A DNA stretch of 64,000 bases, taken from NCBI GenBank assembly GCA_933228675.1, contig OW121744.1, positions 58,299,775 to 58,363,774 of the forward strand, in the 5' to 3' direction. The DNA is from Stomorhina lunata (taxonomy: Eukaryota; Arthropoda; Insecta; Diptera; Rhiniidae). The notes beneath the pieces are model-generated. The model was not told where the DNA came from. It searched no databases and worked only from the letters and a program-made list of their open reading frames with translations. Position numbers and translations under genes: made by a program. Below, in pieces: positions 579 through 54,540 of this stretch (position 1 is the first letter of the stretch; the number at the start of each line of letters is the position of its first letter).

Positions 579-3500
579 AGAAAACTTTCAATATTGAAAG
601 ATTTCCTATAGAAAACTTTCAATATTGAAAGATTTCCTATAGAAAACTTTCAATATTGAAAGATTTCCTATAGAAAACTTTCAATATTGAAAGATTTCCT
701 ATAGAAAACTTTCAATATTGAAAGATTTCCTATAGAAAACTTTCAATATTGAAAGATTTCCTATACAAAAAACTTTCAATATTGAAAGATTTCCTATAGA
801 AAACTTTCAATATAGAAAGATTTCCTATAGAAAACTTTCAATATTGAAAGATTTCCTATACAAAAAACTTTCAATATTGAAAGATTTCCTATAGAAAACT
901 TTCATTATTGAAAGATTTCCTATAGAAAACTTTCATTATTGAAAGATTTCCTATAGAAAACTTTCAATATTGAAAGATTTCCTATAGAAAACTTTCAATA
1001 TTGAAAGATTTCCTATAGAAAACTTTCAATATTGAAAGATTTCCTATATAAAACTTTCAATATTGAAAGATTTCCTATAGAAAACTTTCAATATTGAAAG
1101 ATTTCCTATAGAAAACTTTCAATATTGAAAGATTTCCTATAGAAAACTTTCAATATTGAAAGATTTCCTATAGAAAACTTTCAATATTGAAAGATTTCCT
1201 ATAGAAAACTTTCAATATTGAAAGATTTCCTATAGAAAACTTTCAATATTGAAAGATTTCCTATAGAAAACTTTCAATATTGAAAGATTTCCTATAGAAA
1301 ACTTTCAATATTGAAAGATTTCCTATAGAAAACTTTCAATATTGAAAGATTTCCTATAGAAAACTTTCAATATTGAAAGATTTCCTATAGAAAACTTTCA
1401 ATATTGAAAGATTTCCTATAGAAAACTTTCAAAATTGAAAGATTTCCTATAGAAAACTTTCAATATTGAAAGATTTCCTATAGAAAACTTTCAATATTGA
1501 AAGATTTCCTATAGAAAACTTTCAATATTGAAAGATTTCCTATAGAAAACTTTCAATATTCAAAGATTTCCTATAGAAAACTTTCAATATTCAAAGATTT
1601 CCTATAGAAAACTTTCAATATTGAAAGATTTCCTATAGAAAACTTTCAATATTGAAAGATTTCCTATAGAAAACTTTCAATATTGAAAGATTTCCTATAG
1701 AAAACTTTCAATATTGAAAGATTTCCTATAGAAAACTTTCAATATTGAAAGATTTCCTATAGAAAGCTTTCAATATTGAAAGACTTCCTATAGAAAACTT
1801 TCAATATTGAAAGATTTCCTATAGAAAACTTTCAGTATTGAAAGATTTCCTATAGAAAACTTTCAATATTGAAAGATTTCCTATAGAAAACTTTCAATAT
1901 TGAAAGATTTCCTATAGAAAACTTTCAATATTGAAAGATTTCCTATAGAAAACTTTCAATATTGAAAGATTTCCTATAGAAAACTTTCAATATTGAAAGA
2001 TTTCCTATAGAAAACTTTCAATATTGAAAGATTTCCTATACAAAAAACTTTCAATATTGAAAGATTTCCTATACAAAAAACTTTCAATATTGAAAGATTT
2101 CCTATACAAAAAACTTTCAATATTGAAAGATTTCCTATAGAAAACTTTCAATATTGAAAGATTTCCTACAGAAAACTTTCAATATTGAAAGATTTCCTAT
2201 AGAAAACTTTCAATATTGAAAGATTTCCTATAGAAAACTTTCAATATTGAAAGATTTCCTATAGAAAACTTTCAATATTGAAAGATTTCCTATAGAAAAC
2301 TTTCAATATTGAAAGATTTCCTATAGAAAACTTTCAATATTGAAAGATTTCCTATAGAAAACTTTCAATATTGAAAGATTTCCTATACAAAAAACTTTCA
2401 ATATTGAAAGATTTCCTATAGAAAACTTACAATATTGAAAGATTTCCTACAGAAAACTTTCAATATTGAAAGATTTCCTACAGAAAACTTTCAATATTGA
2501 AAGATTTCCTATAGAAAACTTTCAATATTGAAAGATTTCCTATAGAAAACTTTCAATATTGAAAGACTTCCTATACAAAAAACTTTCAATATTGAAAGAT
2601 TTCCTATAGAAAACTTTCAATATTGAAAGATTTCCTATAGAAAACTTTCAATATTGAAAGATTTCCTATAGAAAACTTTCAATATTGAAAGATTTCCTAT
2701 AGAAAACTTTCAATATTGAAAGATTTCCTATACAAAAAACTTTCAATATTGAAAGATTTCCTATAGAAAACTTTCAATATTGAAAGATTTCCTATAGAAA
2801 ACTTTCAATATTGAAAGATTTCCTATAGAAAGCTTTCAATATTGAAAGACTTCCTATAGAAAACTTTCAATATTGAAAGATTTCCTATAGAAAACTTTCA
2901 GTATTGAAAGATTTCCTATAGAAAACTTTCAATATTGAAAGATTTCCTATAGAAAACTTTCAATATTGAAAGATTTCCTATAGAAAACTTTCAATATTGA
3001 AAGATTTCCTATAGAAAACTTTCAGTATTGAAAGATTTCCTATAGAAAACTTTCAATATTGAAAGATTTCCTATAGAAAACTTTCAATATTGAAAGATTT
3101 CCTATAGAAAACTTTCAATATTGAAAGATTTCCTATAGAAAACTTTCAATATTGAAAGATTTCCTATAGAAAACTTTCAATATTGAAAGATTTCCTATAG
3201 AAAACTTTCAATATTGAAAGATTTCCTATAGAAAACTTTCAATATTGAAAGATTTCCTATATAAAACTTTCAATATTGAAAGATTTCCTATAGAAAACTT
3301 TCAATATTGAAAGATTTCCTATAGAAAACTTTCAATATTGAAAGATTTCCTATAGAAAACTTTCAATATTGAAAGATTTCCTATAGAAAACTTTCAATAT
3401 TGAAAGATTTCCTATAGAAAACTTTCAATATTGAAAGATTTCCTATAGAAAACTTTCAATATTGAAAGATTTCCTATAGAAAACTTTCAATATTGAAAGA

Positions 3501-4625
3501 TTTCCTATAGAAAACTTTCAATATTGAAAGATTTCCTATAGAAAACTTTCAATATTGAAAGATTTCCTATAGAAAACTTTCGATATTGAAAGATTTCCTA
3601 TAGAAAACTTTCAATATTGAAAGATTTCCTATAGAAAACTTTCAATATTGAAAGATTTCCTATAGAAAACTTTCAATATTGAAAGATTTCCTATAGAAAA
3701 CTTTCAATATTGAAAGATTTCCTATAGAAAACTTTCAATATTGAAAGATTTCCTATAGAAAACTTTCAATATTGAAAGATTTCCTATAGAAAACTTTCAA
3801 TATTGAAAGATTTCCTATAGAAAACTTTCAATATTGAAAGATTTCCTATAGAAAACTTTCAATATTGAAAGAATTCCTATAGAAAACTTTCAATATTGAA
3901 AGATTTCCTATAGAAAACTTTCAATATTGAAAGATTTCCTATAGAAAACTTTCAATATTGAAAGATTTCCTATACAAAAAACTTTCAATATTGAAAGATT
4001 TCCTATAGAAAACTTTCAATATTGAAAGATTTCCTATAGAAAACTTTCAATATTGAAAGATTTCCTATAGAAAACTTTCAATATTGAAAGATTTCCTATA
4101 GAAAACTTTCAACATTGAAAGATTTCCTATACAAAAAACTTTCAATATTGAAAGATTTCCTATAGAAAACTTTCATTATTGAAAGATTTCCTATAGAAAA
4201 CTTTCAATATTGAAAGATTTCCTATAGAAAACTTTCAATATTGAAAGATTTCCTATAGAAAACTTTCAATATTGAAAGATTTCCTATAGAAAACTTTCAA
4301 TATTGAAAGATTTCCTATAGAAAACTTTCAATATTGAAAGATTTCCTATAGAAAACTTTCAATATTGAAAGATTTCCTATAGAAAACTTTCAATATTGAA
4401 AGATTTCCTATAGAAAACTTTCAATATTGAAAGATTTCCTATAGAAAACTTTCAATATTGAAAGATTTCCTATAGAAAACTTTCAATATTGAAAGATTTC
4501 CTATAGAAAACTTTCAATATTGAAAGATTTCCTATAGAAAACATTCGATATTGAAAGATTCCCTATAGAAAACATTCGCTATCAAAAGCTTTCCAATAAA
4601 AAACATTTGCTATCGAAAGTTTTCC
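579..4625. repeat. Tandem array 1, 31-bp unit, about 128 copies
   Basis: Head-to-tail copies of a 31-bp unit formed by the perfect 16-bp palindrome CTTTCAATATTGAAAG followed by ATTTCCTATAGAAAA. A recurrent 33-bp variant carries CTATACAAAAAACTTTC in place of CTATAGAAAACTTTC. Copies are nearly identical over about 4 kb and become irregular in the last 100 bases. A distinctive run of variants (AGAAAGCTTTC, GACTTCC, TTTCAGTATTG) occurs near 1761 and again near 2827, showing an internal duplication of about 1066 bp. It has satellite character and no coding capacity. Confidence 0.95.
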
Positions 4626-10129: not shown

Positions 10130-10441
10130 ATTATGAAAGCTTAATGGAAAAATTTTCTTTTTTTGGGATTTAAAAAAAGTTTTGGGAATTCCCCGATACC
10201 TGTCATTATTTAAAATCGTATTCACATATAATGTGACTTCTGGAACGTTTTTATTTCTCGAAAAATCCCAGGTGCCCTACTTTGAGGCATATAGCTCCCC
10301 TACGCTGATAAGTCTACAGACACCAAATTCTAAACTTAAAATCGAATACTCCTCCACAATAGCCATGTGAAATTTCATGATAATCGTTTAAAAGTTCCTA
10401 AATTTTTTTCAAACCACTGTGCGATGTGAGGGTTATTAATA

Positions 10442-11717
10442 TCGGGTGTTTTTTATTGAGGTATAGAACTTTAAGTTGGCATCACTTTTTTAACTGGCGG
10501 CCATTTTGTCAGCTGTCAAGTGATTAATATCTAGTTTGGTTTGCCATTTCATTATGAACAGGTTGACAAATGAACAACGCTTGCAAATCGTGCAAATTTA
10601 TTTCGAAAATAATGGTTCAGTTCGCGAAGTTTACCGCAAGCTCCGTCCATTTTATGGTCGACATAATCGTCCATCAGAGCAATTAATTCGGTTAACCATG
10701 GATCGTTTTCGCACTACGTTTACTCTATGTGATAATACGCATCCGCAGCGACGTCGAACAGTGCGCACCGAAGAAACAATTGCCGCTGTAAAGCAAAGTG
10801 TTGAAGAGGACCCGAATGAATCGATTCGCCACCGTGCACAGCAATTGGAGCTTTGTCCATCAACTTTATGGAAGATTTTGCGCAAAGATCTTGGCTTGCG
10901 ACCTTACAAGATCCAGCTTGTGCAAGAATTAAAGCCGCGAGACCATGCAATGCGTCGTGATTTTGGTGTATGGGCCGAAAATGAGATTGATCTCGATGCT
11001 GATTTTCATCGCAAAATTTTGTTCAGTGATGAGGCTCATTTTTGGTTGAATGGCTACGTCACAAGTAAAATTGCCGCATTTGGAGTGAAGAGAATCCACA
11101 TGAGACCCTTGAGACGCCATTACATCCACAAAAACTGACTGTTTGGTGTGCTCTATGGGCTGGTGGAGTCATTGGGCCATACTTCTTCCGAAATAATGCT
11201 GGAGAGTCAGTTACCATAAATGGAGACCGGTATAGAGCCATGATAACCGACTATTTTGTTCCCCAATTGGATGGCATGAATGTGGATGAGTTGTGGTCCA
11301 ACAAGACGACGCTACATGCCATACAGCGCACGTCACAATTGATTTATTGAAGGAAACATTCGATGAGCGCATAATTTCGCGGAATGGACCTGTCAATTGG
11401 CCACCAAGATCGTGCGATTTGACACCACTGGATTATTTTCTTTGGGGATATGTGAAGTCGCTCGTCTACGTCAACAAACCAGAAAGCCAACATTCGTGGC
11501 GTTATTGCCACGTATATGCTCGAAAAAGTAGTTGAAAATTGGACCTGTAGAATTGGCTTTATTCGAGCCAGCCGCGGCGGCCACATGCCCGAAATCATAT
11601 TTAAACATTAATGGCATAAAATTATCCTTCCAATAAAGCCAAATTGATGGACATTAAAACGATTTTCTTGTGTTTTATTTCAATTCGAAGTTCTATACCT
11701 CTAAAAAAAACACCCAT
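10442..11717 (+). mobile_element. mariner DD41D-type element, copy 1
   Basis: The ends GGGTGTTTTTTATTGAGGTA and TACCTCTAAAAAAAACACCC are inverted, and TA lies outside both ends (10440-10441 and 11718-11719). The left end also carries TATAGAACTT and the right end AAGTTCTATA. Copy 2, lacking its 3' end, is at 51043. The element lies directly beside the right end of the heptamer-ended element at 10421. Confidence 0.85.
10554..11610 (+). pseudogene. mariner DD41D transposase, frameshifted
   Basis: The start at 10554 (MNRLTNEQRLQIVQIYFE) is preferred over the upstream in-frame ATG because relatives begin there. An N-terminal helix-turn-helix domain is followed by a catalytic domain with SDEAHF, QQDDATCH and LTPLDYFLWGY. 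Counting from the first Asp of QDDA to the Asp of PLDY leaves 41 residues, as in the rosa-type basal mariners described from tephritid flies. Breaks: a lost base near 11060 (CGTCACAAG against CGTCAACAAG in copy 2), a lost T near 11296 inside the codon before QQDDA, and a deletion of about 20 bases near 11484. The T loss is shared with copy 2. Confidence 0.85.
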
Positions 11718-12180: not shown

Positions 12181-12185
12181 CATCG
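12181..12185. other. Target-site duplication CATCG, left
   Basis: The five bases CATCG directly precede CACAGTGG and recur directly after CCACTGTG at 17691-17695. A GC-containing 5-bp duplication is what RAG and Transib transposases leave. Confidence 0.85.
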
Positions 12186-12192
12186 CACAGTG
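12186..12192 (+). promoter_or_regulatory. RSS-like heptamer CACAGTG, left end
   Basis: Exact match to the consensus recombination signal heptamer at the extreme left terminus. The next bases are GTTTACGGACGC and an A/T-rich stretch. I did not identify a nonamer at a fixed 12- or 23-base distance. Confidence 0.8.
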
Positions 12193-13595
12193 GTTTACGG
12201 ACGCTTTTTTTTGGAAATAATTCTTTAACTTTTGAACGACTGGAGATATTTGAATGAAATTTGACATGGTGATAGTCAAGGAGTATTCGAGTTGGTTTTT
12301 AAAAGCACTGGTCCATGAGGGGTCGGGAGAGTGATTGATGGACCTTCAAAGTTGGTCACCTCGGGTGTTCGACTTTTTTAAAAATTCGCCAAAAATCCAT
12401 TTATGTATGGATTGAAAAGAAATTTTAAACTTAAGTTGTCCTTGAGAAGATCTACAAAAAATACGCTTAAATGTGTAGGTTATCTCCTTTGGATTTCGAG
12501 ATATTTGGGTAAAAAGGAATTTTTAGGTTGATTTTTTACCTCTTTTTTTAAGCTTTTTTTGATCTGGTGGACGCATCTGAGGACCAAAAATTTTTTAAGA
12601 ATATTCTTTAAATTTGTAATAAAATTCTGAATAATTTTTGTGCAAGTTAGTTATAGAAATCTTCTTTTGTTTAAAAGTTAAAAATATTCAAAGTTGAAAC
12701 TTACAAAAAATTTCGCTTTTTTTTTAGTTTTTCCCCAAAAGATAGCTATATTTTTTCACTAATAAAAAAATATTTTCTTAAGAAACATAAAAAGATTTTT
12801 AAAGTTTTTAAAAGAAAACATAATGAGAATGCGTATAAAACAAATTTCTTGCTAATTGGACTTTTGGTCCTCGCACATGTCCTCTCCAAAAAATGGCAAT
12901 TTGTAAAAAAAAAAAATAGTTTAAACAAAAATTTCTCAAAAGGCAAAGCACCGATTTGAAAAAAATTATAATGTTCATATTTTCCAATATATCTGTTATT
13001 GATTAGAAAAGTTTTTTCTGAAACGCGCTGCAAATAGAGACAGTGTTGCCATATTTGTAAAAAAACTCATTTTTTGAAACACCTTTTTCCCCAGTTGGGA
13101 ATTGGGGAATTTTTAAGTTAAAATTGGGAATTTTTTTTAGTCTATTGCTTTTACATCTTATTGGTCTACATTACTACAAAATTTCATTGTAATATCTTTA
13201 TCCATGTCATTTCCACAGAATATCAAAGATTAAAAATATTTTCCTTAAAAAAGCAGAAAAACAATTTTTTTTTGTTTTACGATACAAAGTGTAAAAAAAG
13301 TAACGCACTTAAAAAAAACTTTTACTTAGTGCTAATCTCCTAGTCTTTCCCGATCTAATGATACTAAACATGTATATAAAGCATTAATACCGAGTCTTAA
13401 AAAACTCTGAAAACTTTGGCCCCCGTAGCATTTTTACACTGTTTATTTAAATATAAGTGATGAATTTGTGCATATAAAGTTAATTATCATACTCAAATAT
13501 TTCACTATTTTTAAGATGACAATGATCCTTCGCTAATAAACAAATATTTTCTTCAAAAAGATATAAATAGTTTTTTATTTTTTTAAAGAAAACAT
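12186..13595 (+). repeat. Left long inverted arm of the RAG1/Transib-like element
   Basis: Matches the reverse complement of 16305-17690 with only scattered differences. A 95-codon open frame in each arm differs by a single residue, and a 60-codon frame is identical in both. Homology ends around TTTTTTTAAAGAAAA near 13590. Within this arm and just inside it, a block around 12750-12970 is echoed in degenerate form at 13530-13720 (AAAGAAAACAT, GAATG, GGCACCGATTTG), indicating an older internal duplication. Confidence 0.85.
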
Positions 13596-14154
13596 TATAA
13601 GAATGACTTAAAAAAATTTTATTCGATTTTGCCTTTTGTTCCAAGCTAAAAAATAAAATTTTAGTAAAAGATTCTAAATAAGTAAGTACGAGTAAGGCAC
13701 CGATTTTGATAACAGTGTAAAGGTAATATATCCATAATTTGTAGCAAAAGTTTAATTAGAAGAGTACTTTTATAGTAACAGTGTGACAATTTATTTAAAA
13801 TAAGATTTAAAGGCATTTTTCCGGTATTTAAAATTGGTGTATTTGAAAAAATTGCAAAATTATGTTAAGGTTAAATGTTTTTTAATGTGAAAGTTAATGC
13901 AATAGGTAAAAATTGTTACAACTTGGGTTTTTCATAATGGTCAGAAAGGATATGGTTACTCACCTCCATACAGGTAGGTTTTACGAGACGCACATATTGG
14001 TTGAGTTATATATGCACCTATTTTTAGAGGTAAAAAATACATTAATTCATTGATTTCTTTATTATTCTTTGGATACAGGTATATATAAAAAATGTTTTTT
14101 TTTAATATAAAAAAGAAAGTTTTAAATGTAACTGCTATTAACAGTTAAAACATC

Positions 14155-16169
14155 ATGGCTATAACATTGGAATTTAAAGTGTTGTGCGATATTCTTTTTG
14201 AACAACCAAGCAGTTCGAGAGCAGAAAAAATTAAAATAATCATGCGATATGCTAAAAGTCAAACTAACTCCATGATTCTCAATAGTGAGGAAGACAAAGT
14301 CGTAAAATTTGTAAAGTTATTTGAACTTAAAATTAAGTCGGTTAATTACTGTTTAAAAAGATTTGAATCTAAATTTAAAGACTGGCTGAAGGACTCAATT
14401 GAGCTTAAAACTTCTGGTGCTGGAGCCCCTCTAAAAAACTATGATGATCTCGGAGAAAGATCTAAAAAGATGCGATTATCCGAAGTTCTTTCTACTCATT
14501 CGGATACTGAAATCAAAGATTCCTTTAAGGAAGTGCTCAAACGAAATAATCAACCAGCTGAAGCTAAACAAATAGCAGATATTCTCCCAGAGGCTTCTCC
14601 TAAACGTCTTAAGCGAATTATTAAGAGTATACCAACTCCTTCTTCTCAATCAGAATTTTCGGAGGAAGAAGCACTTGCTCTTATGCTCGAGTTGAAATTG
14701 AGTAAAAATAAATATATTAAACTCTGTAAGGCATTACGAGACAAAGGACACTCAATTTTACCAGGATATAATGCGTTATTAAAAACCAAAAAAAACTTAA
14801 TACCAACAAACGTGATAGGAGACGAAAGTGCATCTGTGGATTTATCAAAATTATTGGAAAATACGGCATCAAGGAAGAAGAAGCCAAGAAACTTGACAAC
14901 AAGGACTTAACTTTAATATGTAAATGGGGATGTGACGGTTTATCTGGATTACCGGAATACAAACAATCAACATCTCATCAGAACACAAATGACTACAGAA
15001 GCGTTTTTATGGCATCCCTAGTACCACTAAGATTAAGAAAGAATCGTTCTGAACCATCCACATCAAAAGAGCGTACTGAATATGTGTGGGTTAACACATC
15101 TCCAGGATCAAAGGCATTTTGCAGACCGATCAGATTCGAATATTTAAAAGAAAATGCAGCAAGCACAAAAAATTGGGTTGATGATATCAAATATTCAATA
15201 GACAATTTGAGTCCAGTCTGCATAGACATACATGGATATTTGATTAATGTAAATTTTGAGCTTCAATTGACAATGATAGATGGAAAAGTAAGCAACGCTA
15301 TAACGGAAACCCATTCAACTTGGAAATGCTCATTATGCGGAAAGAAGAAATCGGAATTTCTACAAACTTCAGAAGATGCATCAGCTAGTACTGCAATTAA
15401 TCAAGAGGTTCTGGAATTTGGTATATCGCCCCTACATGCACGTATCCGATTTTTAGAATTTATGCTACATATAGCATATGATCTGAAATATAGGAATATA
15501 CCTGATAATCAGCTAAAATCCGTGAGAAATAATAAGGAACTGATTGAAATGAGATCCAGTGAAAAAAAAAGGATTCAGGAAGAATTCAAAACTATGACGG
15601 GTCTAAACATAGACAAACCACTTGTAGGATATGGCAGTACAAACGATGGTAATACGGCCAGGCGATTCTTTGAAAATTATGAAACAACTTCAAAGATTAC
15701 TGGAATTGATGAGGAAGTTCTTCGTAAATGTTACGTAATATTATCGGCAATAAATAGCAAATATCAAATAAATGCTGAAAAATTTCATTGCTATGCCCTC
15801 AACGCGTTAACTCGTATACGACATTTGTATCACTGGAAAGAAATTACACCAACAGTTCATAAAGTCCTTCAACATGGTCGTGAAATAATTGAATCAAATC
15901 TTCTCCCACTTGGTGAACTGACAGAAGAGGCCCAGGAAGCGCGGAATTCAGATTTCAAGTATATCCAACTATTTAATACCAGAAAATGCTCAAGAAAATC
16001 GCAAAATCAGGATCTAATAAATTATCTCTTGTTGTCTTCTGATCCTGCTCTATCAACGATAAGAAAGAAATGGTGGAGCAGTTATACAAAAACTTCTGAA
16101 AACGAACACCTGGAAGAGGTTCTTGATATAATAGATTGTACTGATTATTTTACTGAAAATAAAAATTAA
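14155..16169 (+). CDS. RAG1/Transib-like DDE transposase with one frameshift
   Basis: Two frames, 14155-14910 and 15009-16169 (the second opens further upstream, through 14865), join into about 671 residues if one A is restored in the A-run at 14847-14850. The catalytic core follows RAG1 order. The first Asp is in CDGLSG (14934). The second Asp is in TMIDGKV (15279), 16 residues before the first Cys of CSLC, the zinc pair of RAG1. LHARIRFLEF and GNTARRFF correspond to the RAG1 LHCDIGNA and GNFARKLM segments. VHKVLQH gives the H-x4-H zinc pair, and EIIE then precedes AQEARN, whose Glu (15936) is the third catalytic residue. Spacings of about 115 and 219 residues compare with 108 and 254 in RAG1. 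The N-terminal 250 residues are lysine-rich and unassigned. All metal-binding residues are present, so one base separates this copy from an intact gene. Confidence 0.85.
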
Positions 16170-16304
16170 GTAAATAACTACTTTTATATAAATATGTAAT
16201 AAAAACTGTAAGTTTAAACTTTAACTACAAATACTTCAATAAAATGTATTTCACCTTTTAATATAAGTACAAATTATTTACATTTTGATATTTCATAAAT
16301 CCTC

Positions 16305-17690
16305 ATGATATTTTCTTTAAAAAAATAAAAAAATATTTGTTTGTTATCGAAGGATCATTGTCATCTTATAGTGAAATATTTGAGTATGATTATTAATTTT
16401 ATATGCACAAATTCATCACTTATATTTAAATAAACAGTGTAAAAATGCTACGGGGGCCAAAGTTTTCAGAGTTTTTTAAGACTCGGTATTAATGCTTTAT
16501 ATACATGTTTAGTATCATTAGATCGGGAAAGACTAGGAGATTAGCACTAAGTAAAAGTTTTTTTTAAGTGCGTTACTTTTTTTACACTTTGTATCGTAAA
16601 ACAAAAAAAAATTGTTTTTCTGCTTTTTTAAGGAAAATATTTTTAATCTTTGATATTCTGTGGAAATGACATGGATAAAGATATTACAATGAAATTTTGT
16701 AGTAATGTAGACCAATAAGATGTAAAAGCAATAGACTAAAAAAAATTCCCAATTTTAACTTAAAAATTCCCCAATTCCCAACTGGGGAAAAAGGTGTTTC
16801 AAAAAATGAGTTTTTTTACAAATATGGCAACACTGTCTCTATTTGCAGCGCGTTTCAGAAAAAACTTTTCTAATCAATAACAGATATATTGGAAAATATG
16901 AACATTATAATTTTTTTCAAATCGGTGCTTTGCCTTTTGAGAAATTTTTGTTTAAACTAATTTTTTTTTTTACAAATTGCCATTTTTTGGAGAGGACATG
17001 TGCGAGGACCAAAAGTCCAATTAGCAAGAAATTTGTTTTATACGCATTCTCATTATGTTTTCTTTTAAAAACTTTAAAAATCTTTTTATGTTTCTTAAGA
17101 AAATATTTTTTTATTAGTGAAAAAATATAGCTATCTTTTGGGGAAAAACTAAAAAAAAAGCGAAATTTTTTGTAAGTTTCAACTTTGAATATTTTTAACT
17201 TTTAAACAAAAGAAGATTTCTATAACTAACTTGCACAAAAATTATTCAGAATCTTATTACAAATTTAAAGAATATTCTTAAAAAATTTTTGGTCCTCAGA
17301 TGCGTCCACCAGATCAAAAAAAGCTTAAAAAAAGAGGTAAAAAATCAACCTAAAAATTCCTTTTTACCCAAATATCTCGAAATCCAAAGGAGATAACCTA
17401 CACATTTAAGCATATTTTTTGTAGATCTTCTCAAGGACAACTTAAGTTTAAAATTTCTTTTCAATCCATACATAAATGGATTTTTGGCGAATTTTTAAAA
17501 AAATCGAACACCCGAGGTGACCAACTTTGAAGGTCCATCAATCACTCTCCCGACCCCTCATGGACCAGTGCTTTTAAAAACCAACTCAAATACTCCTTGA
17601 CTACCACCATGTCAAATTTCATTCAAATATCTCCAGTCGTTCAAAAGTTACAGAATTATTTCCAAAAAAAAGCGTCCGTAAACCACTGTG
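16305..17690 (-). repeat. Right long inverted arm of the RAG1/Transib-like element
   Basis: Reverse complement of the left arm, ending CCACTGTG at 17690. It carries mirror copies of the short open frames in the left arm; these are not regarded as genes. Confidence 0.85.
17684..17690 (-). promoter_or_regulatory. RSS-like heptamer CACAGTG, right end (inverted)
   Basis: CACTGTG on the plus strand is CACAGTG read inward from the right terminus, mirroring the left end. Confidence 0.8.
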
Positions 17691-17695
17691 CATCG
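17691..17695. other. Target-site duplication CATCG, right
   Basis: Second copy of the pentamer at 12181-12185, directly abutting the right terminus. Confidence 0.85.
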
Positions 17696-20339: not shown

Positions 20340-20708
20340 ATACCTCGACACTTAGACTTTTTATAACCTTTAGACTTTTTATAACCTTTATTACCATAGA
20401 TAGAAAGTGTATATTGGGTTTATGCTGACGTTTGTAACTCATAAAAATATTGGTCAGAGCCCCACCTTTTGTTATGCGGGTCGACTCAGAATGTCCGTAA
20501 GGCTGGCTGGTTATCCATGTAGGCTTGTTATCAAAGAACACGTCGTAGCTTTAAAGATAATTTGATGAAATTTGCCACAGTCTCAATTTTGGTCCAAGGA
20601 GCCTTATAGTTTTTGGGCAAAATCAGATTACTATTTCGGGTACTTTCCGGAATAGATTTTTTACATTTTGGAATGAGCTTGAAGAAACAAACGAAACCAC
20701 TGTGCGGT
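20340..20708 (-). repeat. Dispersed repeat family A remnant, reversed
   Basis: On the minus strand the order AAATTTCATCAAATTATCTTTA, then a CATTCTGAGTCGACC block, then ACCAATATTTTTATGAGTTA and CAAACGTCAGCATAAA matches the 3' half of family A, especially its copy at 40425-42738. It is strongly diverged, and abuts the MITE that starts at 20709. Confidence 0.65.
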
Positions 20709-24965: not shown

Positions 24966-26027
24966 TCCGATGCTATGTCGTAGCTTGTATTTATTAGTGG
25001 TTTACCACTAATTGGAGGAGAACTATAGTAAAGTGCAAATTGTATGTGTGCCACTGAAAAATGTACAAAAAGTTTCACCACAGAGTTTGGCAATAAAATT
25101 GATTTGTTAATATATTGGCTACAAATAAAAAAGCAAATAAATTTACAACTTATAAACAAAATAACAACTACATTATTATACACTTGCAATTGTATTTATA
25201 ACTCACTTCCAATTCATACCAAATTCGCAAAAACTGAAAACGAAACCAAAACTTTTTTAAGAATATTTTTTACTAAATTACACTTTTTGAAAAGTTTTCA
25301 AGCAATTTTTATTTATTCACATAAATTTTGTTCCCAAAAAGATAGTTTTATGGCCAAATCTTTTTTTGCCAGAGGTAAAGAAAGCGTAATTTTGTATCCC
25401 TTAAGTGCAATTTGTAATTATTCAAAATCATCGTTAAGAAATTTTATAAAAAGCTGCTAGTCTTCTAGAGGATAAGTAAATACGTTATAAATGTATGTGA
25501 ATCTTTTATGTATTAAGCAAAAAATATTTATGTTCTTTTTGTAAAACTCAAATGCTCTATCTAATGTTTCAACATTTTAAGTTTAAGGGATATTTATGTC
25601 TCTGTTTGAGAATTGATGACATTTTCCAAAACAATTACATTCAAATTCCCAACCAACAAAAAACATTCGTTTGTTCATATGTTGAAATACGCATATATTA
25701 GATAGAATTCACTTACGCACTCGTGTGTTGAATCCAAATAAAACAGCCTTTGAAATATTGGACTCACTGTGAGTGGTTGTAAATCACCCAAGGTTTAAAT
25801 ACAAGTTACATCAATTTAAGAGGATGAGATAAATTAAATGCATGTGAGAACGTGAGATTTGAAAAAGAAATAATTGTTTGTACTTATTGTTTATTTTGGT
25901 AGTTAAGATTTCTGGAATTATATAAAATTTTGAGATTTTTATATACAGGTAATTATCGAAACATATATATTTTCTTATTTAACAAAAATATAAAAAAACT
26001 ACTAAATGACAGATGGGCAAATCCTGC
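24966..26027. other. Spacer with no recognisable gene
   Basis: AT-rich sequence. A 138-codon open frame at 25044-25460 has no recognisable motif and runs through AT-rich DNA, so it is not annotated. Probable intron. Confidence 0.4.
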
Positions 26028-51042: not shown

Positions 51043-52147
51043 TAGGGTGTTTTTTATTGAGGTATAGAACTTTAAGTTGGCATTACTTTTTTAACTGGCG
51101 GCCATTTTGTCAGCTGTCAAGTGATTAATATTTAGTTTGGTTTGCCATTTCATCATGAACAGGTTGACAAAAGAACAACGCTTGCAAATCGTGCAAATTT
51201 ATTTCGAAAATAAAGGTTCAGTTCGCGAAGTTTACCGCAAGCTCCGTCCATTTTATGGTCGACATAATCGTCCATCAGAGCAATTAATTCGGTTAACCAT
51301 GGATCGTTTTCGCACTACGTTTACTCTATGTGATAATACGCATCCGCAGCGACGTCGAACAGTGCGCACCGAAGAAACAATTGCCGCTGTAGAGCAAAGT
51401 GTTGAAGAGGAACCGAATGAATCAATTCGCCACCGTGCACAGCAATTGGAGCTTTGTCCATCAACTTTATGGAAGATTTTGCGCAAAGATCTTGGCTTGC
51501 GACCTTACAAGATCCAGCTTGTGCAAGAATTAAAGCCGCGAGACCATGCAATGCGTCGTGATTTTGGTGTATGGGCCGAAAATGAGATTGATCTCGATGC
51601 TGATTTTCATCGCAAAATTTTGTTCAGTGATGAGGCTCATTTTTGGTTGAATGGCTACGTCAACAAGCAAAATTGCCGCATTTGGAGTGAAGAGAATCCA
51701 CATGAGACCCTTGAGACGCCATTACATCCACAAAAACTGACTGTTTGGTGTGCTCTATGGGCTGGTGGAGTCATTGGGCCATACTTCTTCCGAAATAATG
51801 CTGGAGAGTCAGTTACCATAAATGGAGACCGGTATAGAGCCATGATAAACGACTATTTTGTTCCCCAATTGGATGGCATGAATGTGGATGAGTTGTGGTC
51901 CAACAAGACGACGCTGCATGCCACACAGCACACGTCACAATTGATTTATAGAAGGAAACATTCGATGAGCGCATAATTTCGCGAAATGGACCTGTCAATT
52001 GGTAACCAAGATCGTGCGATTTGACACCACTGGATTATTTTCTTTGGGGATATGTGAAGTCGCTCGTCTACGCCAACAAACCAGAAACGTCGTTAGGGGA
52101 CTTGGAAGCCAACATTCGTGGCGTTATTGCCAACATACGGCCTCATA
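51043..52147 (+). mobile_element. mariner DD41D-type element, copy 2, 3' truncated
   Basis: The left end TAGGGTGTTTTTTATTGAGG follows TA at 51041-51042 and matches copy 1 at 10442. The match stops near 52147, within the C-terminal coding region, so the right terminus is absent. Confidence 0.82.
51155..52147 (+). pseudogene. mariner DD41D transposase, copy 2
   Basis: From MNRLTKEQRLQIVQIYFE at 51155 the frame is open to the codons NVDELW near 51898. It includes both helix-turn-helix motifs, SDEAHF, and HPQKLTVWCALWAGGVIGPY. One T is then missing immediately before CAACAAGACGACGC, exactly as in copy 1, and the frame runs to a stop at 51976. The QQDDATCH and LTPLDYFLWGY motifs lie in the shifted frame; an additional TTATAG and a TGGTAACC change are private to this copy. 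It keeps the segment CGTCGTTAGGGGACTTGG that copy 1 has lost. Confidence 0.85.
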
Positions 52148-52698: not shown

Positions 52699-54425
52699 AA
52701 ATTTTTCTATAGAAAATTTTTTTCATTCAAAATTTTTCTATAGAACATTTTTTTATTATAAATTTTTTTTTATCAAAAATTTTTCTATAGGAAATGTTTT
52801 TATCAAAAAAATTTTCTATAGAAAATGTTTTTATCAAAAATTTTTCTATAGAAAATTTTTTATCAAAAATTTTTCTATAGAAAATTTTTTATCAAAAATT
52901 TTTCTAGAGAAAATTTTTTTATCAAAAATATTTCTATAGAAAATTTTTTTATCAAAAATTTTTCTATAGAAAATTTTTTATCAAAAATTTTTCTATAGAA
53001 AATTTTTTTATCAAAAATTTTTCTATAGAAAATTTTTTTATCAAAAATTTTTCTATAGAAAATTTTTTGATCATAAATTATTCTATAGACAATTTTTTTA
53101 TCAAAAATTTTTCTATAGAAAATTTTTGTATCAAAAATTTTTCTATATAAAATTTTTTTATAGAAAATTTTTCTATAGAAAATTTTTTTATCAAAAATTT
53201 TTCTATATAAAATTTTTTTATGAAAAATTTTTCTATAGAAAATTTTTTTATCAAAAATTTTTCTATAGAAAATTTTGGTAAAAAATTTTTCTATAAAAAA
53301 TTTTTTTATCAAAAATTTTTCTATAGAAAATTTTTTATCAAAAATTTTTCTATAGAAATTTTTTTTATCAAAAACTTTTCTATACAATATTTTTTTTAAC
53401 AAAAATTTTTCTATAGAAAATTTTGGTATAAAAACTTTTTCTATAAAAAATTTTTTTATCAAAAATTTTTCTATAGAAAATTTTTTTATCAAAAATTTTT
53501 CTATAGAAACTTTTTGTATCAAAAATTTTTCTATAGAAATTTTTTGTATCAAAAATTTGTCTATAGAAAATTTTTTTATCAAAAATTTTTCTATCGAAAA
53601 TTTTTTTATCAAAAATTTTTCTATAGAAAATTTTTTTATCAAAAATTTTTCTATGAAAAATTTTTTTATCAAAAATTTTTCTATAGAAAATTTTTTTATC
53701 AAAAAGTTTTCTATAGAAAATTTTTTATCAAAAATTTTTTTATAGAAAATTTTTTTATCAAAAATTTTTCTATAAAAAATTTTTTTATCAAAAATTTTTC
53801 TATAGAAATTTTTTATCAAAAATTCTTCTATAGAAAATTATTTTATCAAAAATTTTTCTATAGAAAATGTTTTTATCAAAAATTTTTCTATTGCAAATTT
53901 TTTTTATTAAAAATTTTTTAATAGAAAATTTTGTTATCAAAAACTTTTCTATAGAAAATTTTTTTATCAAAAATTTTTCTATAGAAAATTATTTTATCAA
54001 AAATTCTTCTATAGAAAATGTTTTTATCAAAAATTTTTCTATTGCAAATTTTTTTTTATTAAAAATTTTTTAATAGAAAATTTTTTTATCAAAATTTTTT
54101 CTATAGAAAAGTTTTTTATCAAAAATTTTTCTATACAAAATTTTTTTATCAAAAATTTTTTTATAGAAGATTTTTTTATCAAAAATTTTTCCATATAAAT
54201 TTGTTTTACCAAAAATTTTTCTATATAAAATTTTTTTATCAAAAATTTTTCTATAGAAAATTTTTTTATCAAAAATTTTTCTATAGAAAATTTTTTTATC
54301 AAAAATTTTTCTGTAGAAAATTTTTTTAGAAAATTTTTTTATCAAAAATTTTTCTATAGAAAATTTTTTATCAAAAATTTTTCTATAGAAAATTTTTTTA
54401 TCAAAAATTTTTCTATAAAAATTGT
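52699..54425. repeat. Tandem array 4, ~30-bp unit
   Basis: Copies of AAAAATTTTTCTATAGAAAA followed by TTTTTTTATC, mostly 29-30 bases. It is less homogeneous than arrays 1 and 2. The 30-base period is a multiple of three, so long open frames appear on both strands (up to 314 codons of alternating FLIKKF and SIEKF); these are not genes. Confidence 0.92.
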
Positions 54426-54540
54426 TTTTTTGTTAACATCCAAATTCTAACTGAATGATTTTCACGAGTATTTACGAAAATTAAAAATATTCATCGGCTA
54501 CTGGTGGTATGGGCTGCCTACTCCTGCTCATAAGCTTTAT
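54426..54540 (-). repeat. Segment shared with the marker of tandem array 3
   Basis: On the minus strand GAGTAGGCAGCCCAT, then AGTAGCCGATGAATA and AATTTTCGTAAATA matches the array-3 marker GGCGTAGGCAGCCCAAAAG, CCGATATC and AATTTTCGTAAATA. A non-repetitive piece is therefore associated with two separate CTATAG-type arrays. Confidence 0.7.

Follow-up and report, generated by a model that had tools for sequence, protein, structure and literature searches.

A long-armed Transib transposon family in the fly Stomorhina lunata, apparently spread recently from one founder

A 64,000-nucleotide stretch of the Stomorhina lunata genome (contig OW121744.1, positions 58,299,775 to 58,363,774 of the forward strand; hereafter the window) carries an element at positions 12186 to 17690, with CATCG on either side, which a preliminary description had placed in the RAG1/Transib clade, in a fly intron and with no RAG2-like partner. 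This locus raises the question of which branch of that clade the element represents, and whether it is a relic or part of a family that has moved recently. RAG1, the enzyme that puts vertebrate antibody genes together, is held to have arisen from the Transib superfamily. We consider it highly probable (about 0.95) that the element is a DDE cut-and-paste transposon of the Transib superfamily, which spread recently from seemingly one founder and whose 1.37-kb arms recombined meanwhile. Judging from the sequences, it is a complete member of what is probably a new family of known Transib kind, whose recent activity is suggested by its copies; what is unusual about the family is the great length of its ends and the large number of its copies. 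Membership of the clade agrees with sequence, fold, 5-bp duplications and empty sites, and the element belongs to Transib proper. The intron location was not confirmed, as no host exon or surrounding gene was identified in the window.

The outer ends are as they had been described, with CACAGTG in inverted orientation and the CATCG duplication outside (Table 1). Both features recur well beyond this copy: all 33 complete copies read in the genome have CACAGTG at both ends and 31 have a perfect 5-bp duplication, which is beyond chance. The inward reading is CACAGTGGTTTACGGACGC at both ends, the opening 39 bases being the same left and right, and the 19-base end, allowing up to three mismatches, occurs twice in the window versus 0.01 times expected from shuffles. 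The inverted arms are much longer than the heptamers noticed at first, reaching 1,368 bp; an ungapped comparison of the two gave 1,324 nucleotides at 99%. Within the left arm, a 116-bp stretch (12755-12870) recurs at 13529-13642 with 78% identity, at and beyond the inner end of the arm, and is a trace of an older duplication.

The transposase gene of the window copy is broken, being split across two frames, one from 14155 to about 14873 and the other covering 14874-16166, because 22 bp are deleted after 14873 relative to another copy; the intact protein in other copies has 678 amino acids (aa). The frame of the first part continues in the window to a stop at 14908-14910 (251 aa), and residues 1-241 of the relative P0001 map onto 14155-14874 with 56% identity by tblastn. 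The acidic and zinc-type residues that had been read in RAG1 order are found where they were placed, and are kept in an alignment of 45 proteins that includes the window piece. The DDE triad agrees with D126, D225 and E436 of HzTransib, reported as its catalytic triad (PMC6941560), and one constant numbering shift, 17, fits all three. Homology to known Transib transposases is further indicated by the match to HzTransib (E value 1.9e-77), which is also the best hit in the fold comparison, and no profile placed the protein in another DDE superfamily. Besides the two transposase pieces there is no frame of at least 110 aa within the element, so no second large frame and no RAG2-like gene lies there, and to this extent the missing partner is confirmed. 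A search of the genome with a RAG2 model gave no match, but the control matched in 0 of 14 genomes, so that absence from the genome is not demonstrated. Relatives sought elsewhere by pattern gave 31 stretches in viral contigs and 30 in prokaryote genome contigs, none of them confirmed.

How widely the element has spread can be read from its ends. The exact 19-bp end pattern occurs 1,859 times in the 728-Mb genome (942 forward, 917 reverse), and the reversed control 0 times. When the first 100 ends are matched up, 38 inward-facing pairs account for 76 of them, 30 of the pairs spanning 5.3-5.7 kb, and the remaining 24 have no partner; if this stretch is typical, extrapolation as 0.60 x 1,859 / 2 would give about 560 full-length copies. 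With a 315-base left-end query, the first look gave 1,262 candidates and 40 were scored; 41 matches were listed, each 100% identical to the query along its 315 bases and each on the same contig. A 601-base transposase query returned 561 candidates, and the 40 scored were all 100% identical. Forty loci were read, namely the window, 20 from the end search and 19 from the transposase search, the complete copies other than the window all lying on one contig (C1). Complete elements stand at 33 of these loci, the other seven being L010, L022, L024, L028, L039, L040 and L043. They differ pairwise by a mean of 0.28% and a maximum of 0.55% in a set of 32, from which L032 (6.8 kb) was omitted. Of the 33, 17 have an open 678-aa frame, the window copy not among them, with 5 of 16 in the end-search set versus 12 of 16 in the transposase-search set, the latter being biased since its members were selected for identity in the 601 bases. 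One further locus, L051 (G000:C1:35832842-35834786), holds a derivative of 1,445 bp. It has two ends and the duplication CAGTG; one arm extends for about 1,300 bp with 90% identity, and of the other there is only about 40 bp.

That the element was inserted with a 5-bp duplication, as proposed, is borne out by the duplications above together with four paralogous empty sites. Spanning paralogous matches were found for 12 of 31 copies; five were looked at, and four (for L036, L013, L016 and L027) were counted as empty sites, where a related repeat in the window lacks the element and has the duplicated five bases once. The site for L009 was not counted, being ambiguous from a local repeat. For the window's own site no allele lacking the element was found, though none was looked for. 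L036 is inserted in a mariner gene with two uninterrupted relatives in the window, 97-98% identical; the window also shows two mariner-type frames, at 10524-11138 and 51125-51976, whose relatives are named DD41D transposase. The best match to a mariner of the window reaches 94%, and the named ones, in the spider Trichonephila clavipes and in Musca autumnalis, are at about 77%, which allows no conclusion on the host. The targets have a G+C content of 66%, above that of the 10 bases flanking them on each side (40%) and that of the window (29%). Read in both orientations, they fit a C[G/A]N[C/T]G palindrome with A or C before it and G or T after it, and C-x3-G is found in 14 of 31 duplications versus 1.8% of 20,000 random window 5-mers. 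A G+C bias of the duplication is known in ProtoRAG, Transib and RAG (PMC8289069). At G000:C1:32263932-32274985, two elements (L028 and L031) stand head to head with a single CGATG between their ends, the outer left flank being TGCTG and the outer right flank CGATG; on one reading, the second was inserted into the duplication of the first. Two family ends also stand head to head, 20 bp apart, at G000:C2:140030703-140030748 (L030). A pattern search for reintegrated signal joints, that is back-to-back heptamers with 0-25 bases between the ends, found two places, with spacers of 5 and 20 and none of 0.

The arms have a history of their own, which was followed in 64 arms from 32 copies. Five linked variants in the outer arm (alignment columns 40-280) form two haplotypes, A and B, and inner marks at columns 1317 and 1323 separate left from right arms in 62 of the 64, L011 and L036 having the left mark on both arms. 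All four combinations of outer and inner marks occur (22, 17, 13 and 12 arms). By copy, the left/right outer haplotypes are B/A in nine, A/B in six, B/B in four, A/A in three and mixed within one arm in ten. Since recurrent mutation is unlikely at five linked places, the arms have recombined. Crossing-over between the arms of one element would swap its ends, and exchange with other copies would give A/A and B/B; the choice between these is not settled. In the transposase frame only one variant is shared and 33 are singletons, versus 19 shared and 95 singleton variants in the arms, so that the interior looks like one founder, from which the family seems to have spread recently. The frame singletons comprise 26 replacing and seven silent changes, and this silent share (0.21) equals that among all possible changes (0.21), as for unselected changes since insertion. 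The singleton load is 144 across 32 copies of about 5.5 kb, or 0.08% per copy. The fly mutation rate is near 3e-9 per generation, and the family may thus be, very roughly, a few hundred thousand generations old, the sampling biasing this figure toward youth. A more speculative idea, which we regard as doubtful, is that this RAG1-clade transposon has a foldback-like architecture, the outer ends of its kilobase arms reassorting freely against the interior as the family spreads, so that ends resembling the recombination signal sequence (RSS) would be exchangeable modules. If true, this would parallel, in a natural transposon, the transfer of signals from one partner to another, and would offer a route for Transib ends to become unequal or to travel apart from the gene.

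Other affiliations can be weighed against these data. A RAG1L-RAG2L transposon of the ProtoRAG type, or a remnant of one after loss of RAG2L, would share the CAC-starting ends and the 5-bp duplication, and RAG1 and RAG1L are among the top folds behind HzTransib; we nevertheless hold it very unlikely, for amphioxus RAG1L gives only a marginal sequence match (E value 0.019, versus 1.9e-77 for HzTransib), identity in the fold alignments is 16-18% for RAG1L/RAG1 versus 36-38% for HzTransib, and a second large frame is lacking. The kilobase arms suggest instead a foldback-like or P-superfamily (Galileo-like) element whose DDE enzyme is distantly RAG1-like. Such an architecture can be shared without kinship, however, and the P element reaches 12.2 in the fold comparison versus 34.7 for HzTransib and is not among the sequence matches up to an E value of 1, whereas ends in CAC together with duplications of 5 bp are in keeping with Transib, all of which makes this affiliation extremely improbable.

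The recent spread of the family can be questioned in its turn, because the recombined arm variants could also be expected in a fossil family of old high copy number, whose copies were kept alike by gene conversion rather than by recent transposition. The nearly universal perfect duplications, the singletons that look unselected since insertion and the single shared variant in the frame argue otherwise, and such a fossil origin seems quite unlikely. Moreover, the two arms of a copy diverge no less (0.64%) than arms taken from separate copies (0.61%), an observation against frequent conversion within copies, and among 97 variants private to one copy only four are in both arms, which counts against it likewise. 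Several observations weigh against a recently spread Transib family whose arms recombined. The same arm divergences are among them, and since copies had to be 100% identical to a query of 315 or 601 bases to be chosen, both their divergence and the proportion with an open frame are biased. L034 and L049 lack matching duplications, and L028 has mismatched flanks; the idea that L034 and L049 are the two ends of one inversion was rejected, since the expected complements do not fit. The Pfam RAG1 profile (PF12940), proposed earlier as a check, matched neither window protein piece at E values up to 1. Of four relatives scanned with this profile, only P0065 lies above the curated cut-off (1.6e-9), P0023 falls just below it (1.2e-5), and P0001 and P0110 are missed.

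For a Transib transposon of this kind, a working mechanism may be proposed. The 678-aa transposase would attach to the CACAGTG ends, introduce a nick 5' of the heptamer and then close the flanks as hairpins, a chemistry reported for HzTransib and RAG (PMC6941560). The present enzyme may use it too, and may still be active. The freed element would join a CG-rich palindromic target by 5-bp staggered cuts, and these would leave the 5-bp duplication. The long arms may be recombination-prone baggage or regulatory DNA rather than a requirement for cleavage; if transcribed, they would fold into hairpin RNA.

Table 1. Features of the element, in window coordinates.
Feature	Position	Strand	Basis
Left target site duplication CATCG	12181..12185	+	seen directly; copy comparison
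Left terminal heptamer CACAGTG	12186..12192	+	identical to consensus RSS heptamer (consensus per PMC8289069)
Left terminal inverted repeat, 1,368 bp	12186..13553	+	98.8% identity to right arm over 1,368 aligned positions
Transposase gene part 1 (N-terminal region)	14155..14873	+	ATG to deletion point; tblastn, copy alignment
Transposase gene part 2 (catalytic core, C-terminus)	14874..16169, stop included	+	third frame; HzTransib E 1.9e-77; model m25f586f04e2f
Codon of first catalytic D (KWGCDG)	14934..14936	+	opposite HzTransib D126; present in 45/45
Codon of second catalytic D (MIDGK)	15279..15281	+	opposite HzTransib D225; 43/45, N in 2
C-x2-C zinc-type pair	15327..15338	+	both C in 45/45
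H-x4-H zinc-type pair	15858..15875	+	both H in 45/45
Codon of catalytic E (AQEARN)	15936..15938	+	opposite HzTransib E436; present in 45/45
Right terminal inverted repeat	16327..17690	-	partner of left arm, same alignment
Right terminal heptamer CACAGTG	17684..17690	-	seen directly; copy comparison
Right target site duplication CATCG	17691..17695	+	seen directly; copy comparison

Elsewhere in the window, positions 10161-10421 hold a diverged Transib-like end, with CACTGTG followed by CGATG and an alignment of about 200 bases to the end of the element; the likeness comprises the heptamer plus GTTT and several inner blocks, and the sequence probably represents an older related family. At the CACTGTG site 20704, CACAGTGGTTT (20698-20708, minus strand) has its first 11 bases clearly in common with the element and little further likeness, and at 25771, 27040 and 58089 the heptamer alone is common with the element's end. 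Dense overlapping inverted and tandem repeats in steps of about 31 bp occupy 2736-4624. In the AT-rich repeats at 52875-54432, both strands contain long IEKFLIKKF-type open frames, which are probably not a gene.

According to one paper, an animal genome typically carries a single copy of an autonomous Transib, or a few at most (PMC4411706). With about 1,860 exact ends, the majority of a positional sample of which are in full-length pairs, this family departs from that usual number. With its exact RSS heptamer and the frames left open in many copies, it would offer abundant natural evidence on target choice and end handling by a RAG1-clade transposase, and would probably yield an active enzyme to set beside RAG and HzTransib. 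The findings leave the accepted relationship of Transib to V(D)J recombination as it was.

Compared with vertebrate V(D)J signals, the ends of the element have no RSS nonamer at a spacer of 12 (0 of 9 matches) and only a weak one at 22-23 (5 and 4 of 9), and because the two ends are identical for 39 bases there is no 12/23 asymmetry. The exact RSS heptamer, which had been taken as a novelty, is already reported for the ends of some Transibs (PMC8355894, PMC6941560). HzTransib (Helicoverpa zea; PDB 6pqn, 6pqx and others) resembles the element in transposase sequence, fold and catalytic triad. It likewise leaves a 5-bp duplication (GCTCG in the described copy) and has one gene and no RAG2 (PMC1852546, PMC7204232); it differs in its length of 3,518 bp and its 489-aa product, which has about 36-38% identity to the window protein. 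Among the papers listed in a literature search no earlier kilobase-armed Transib was seen, the HzTransib paper speaking of 'long TIRs' (terminal inverted repeats) of a length unstated in its accessible text. Drosophila Transib1 is likewise a recently spread Transib of flies (PMC12230796), with a length of 3,030 bp versus 5.5 kb here. Galileo, of the P superfamily, also combines kilobase inverted repeats with a gene for its own transposase, as here; however, its transposase belongs to another superfamily, and its arms contain repeated enzyme-binding sites (PMC3688188).

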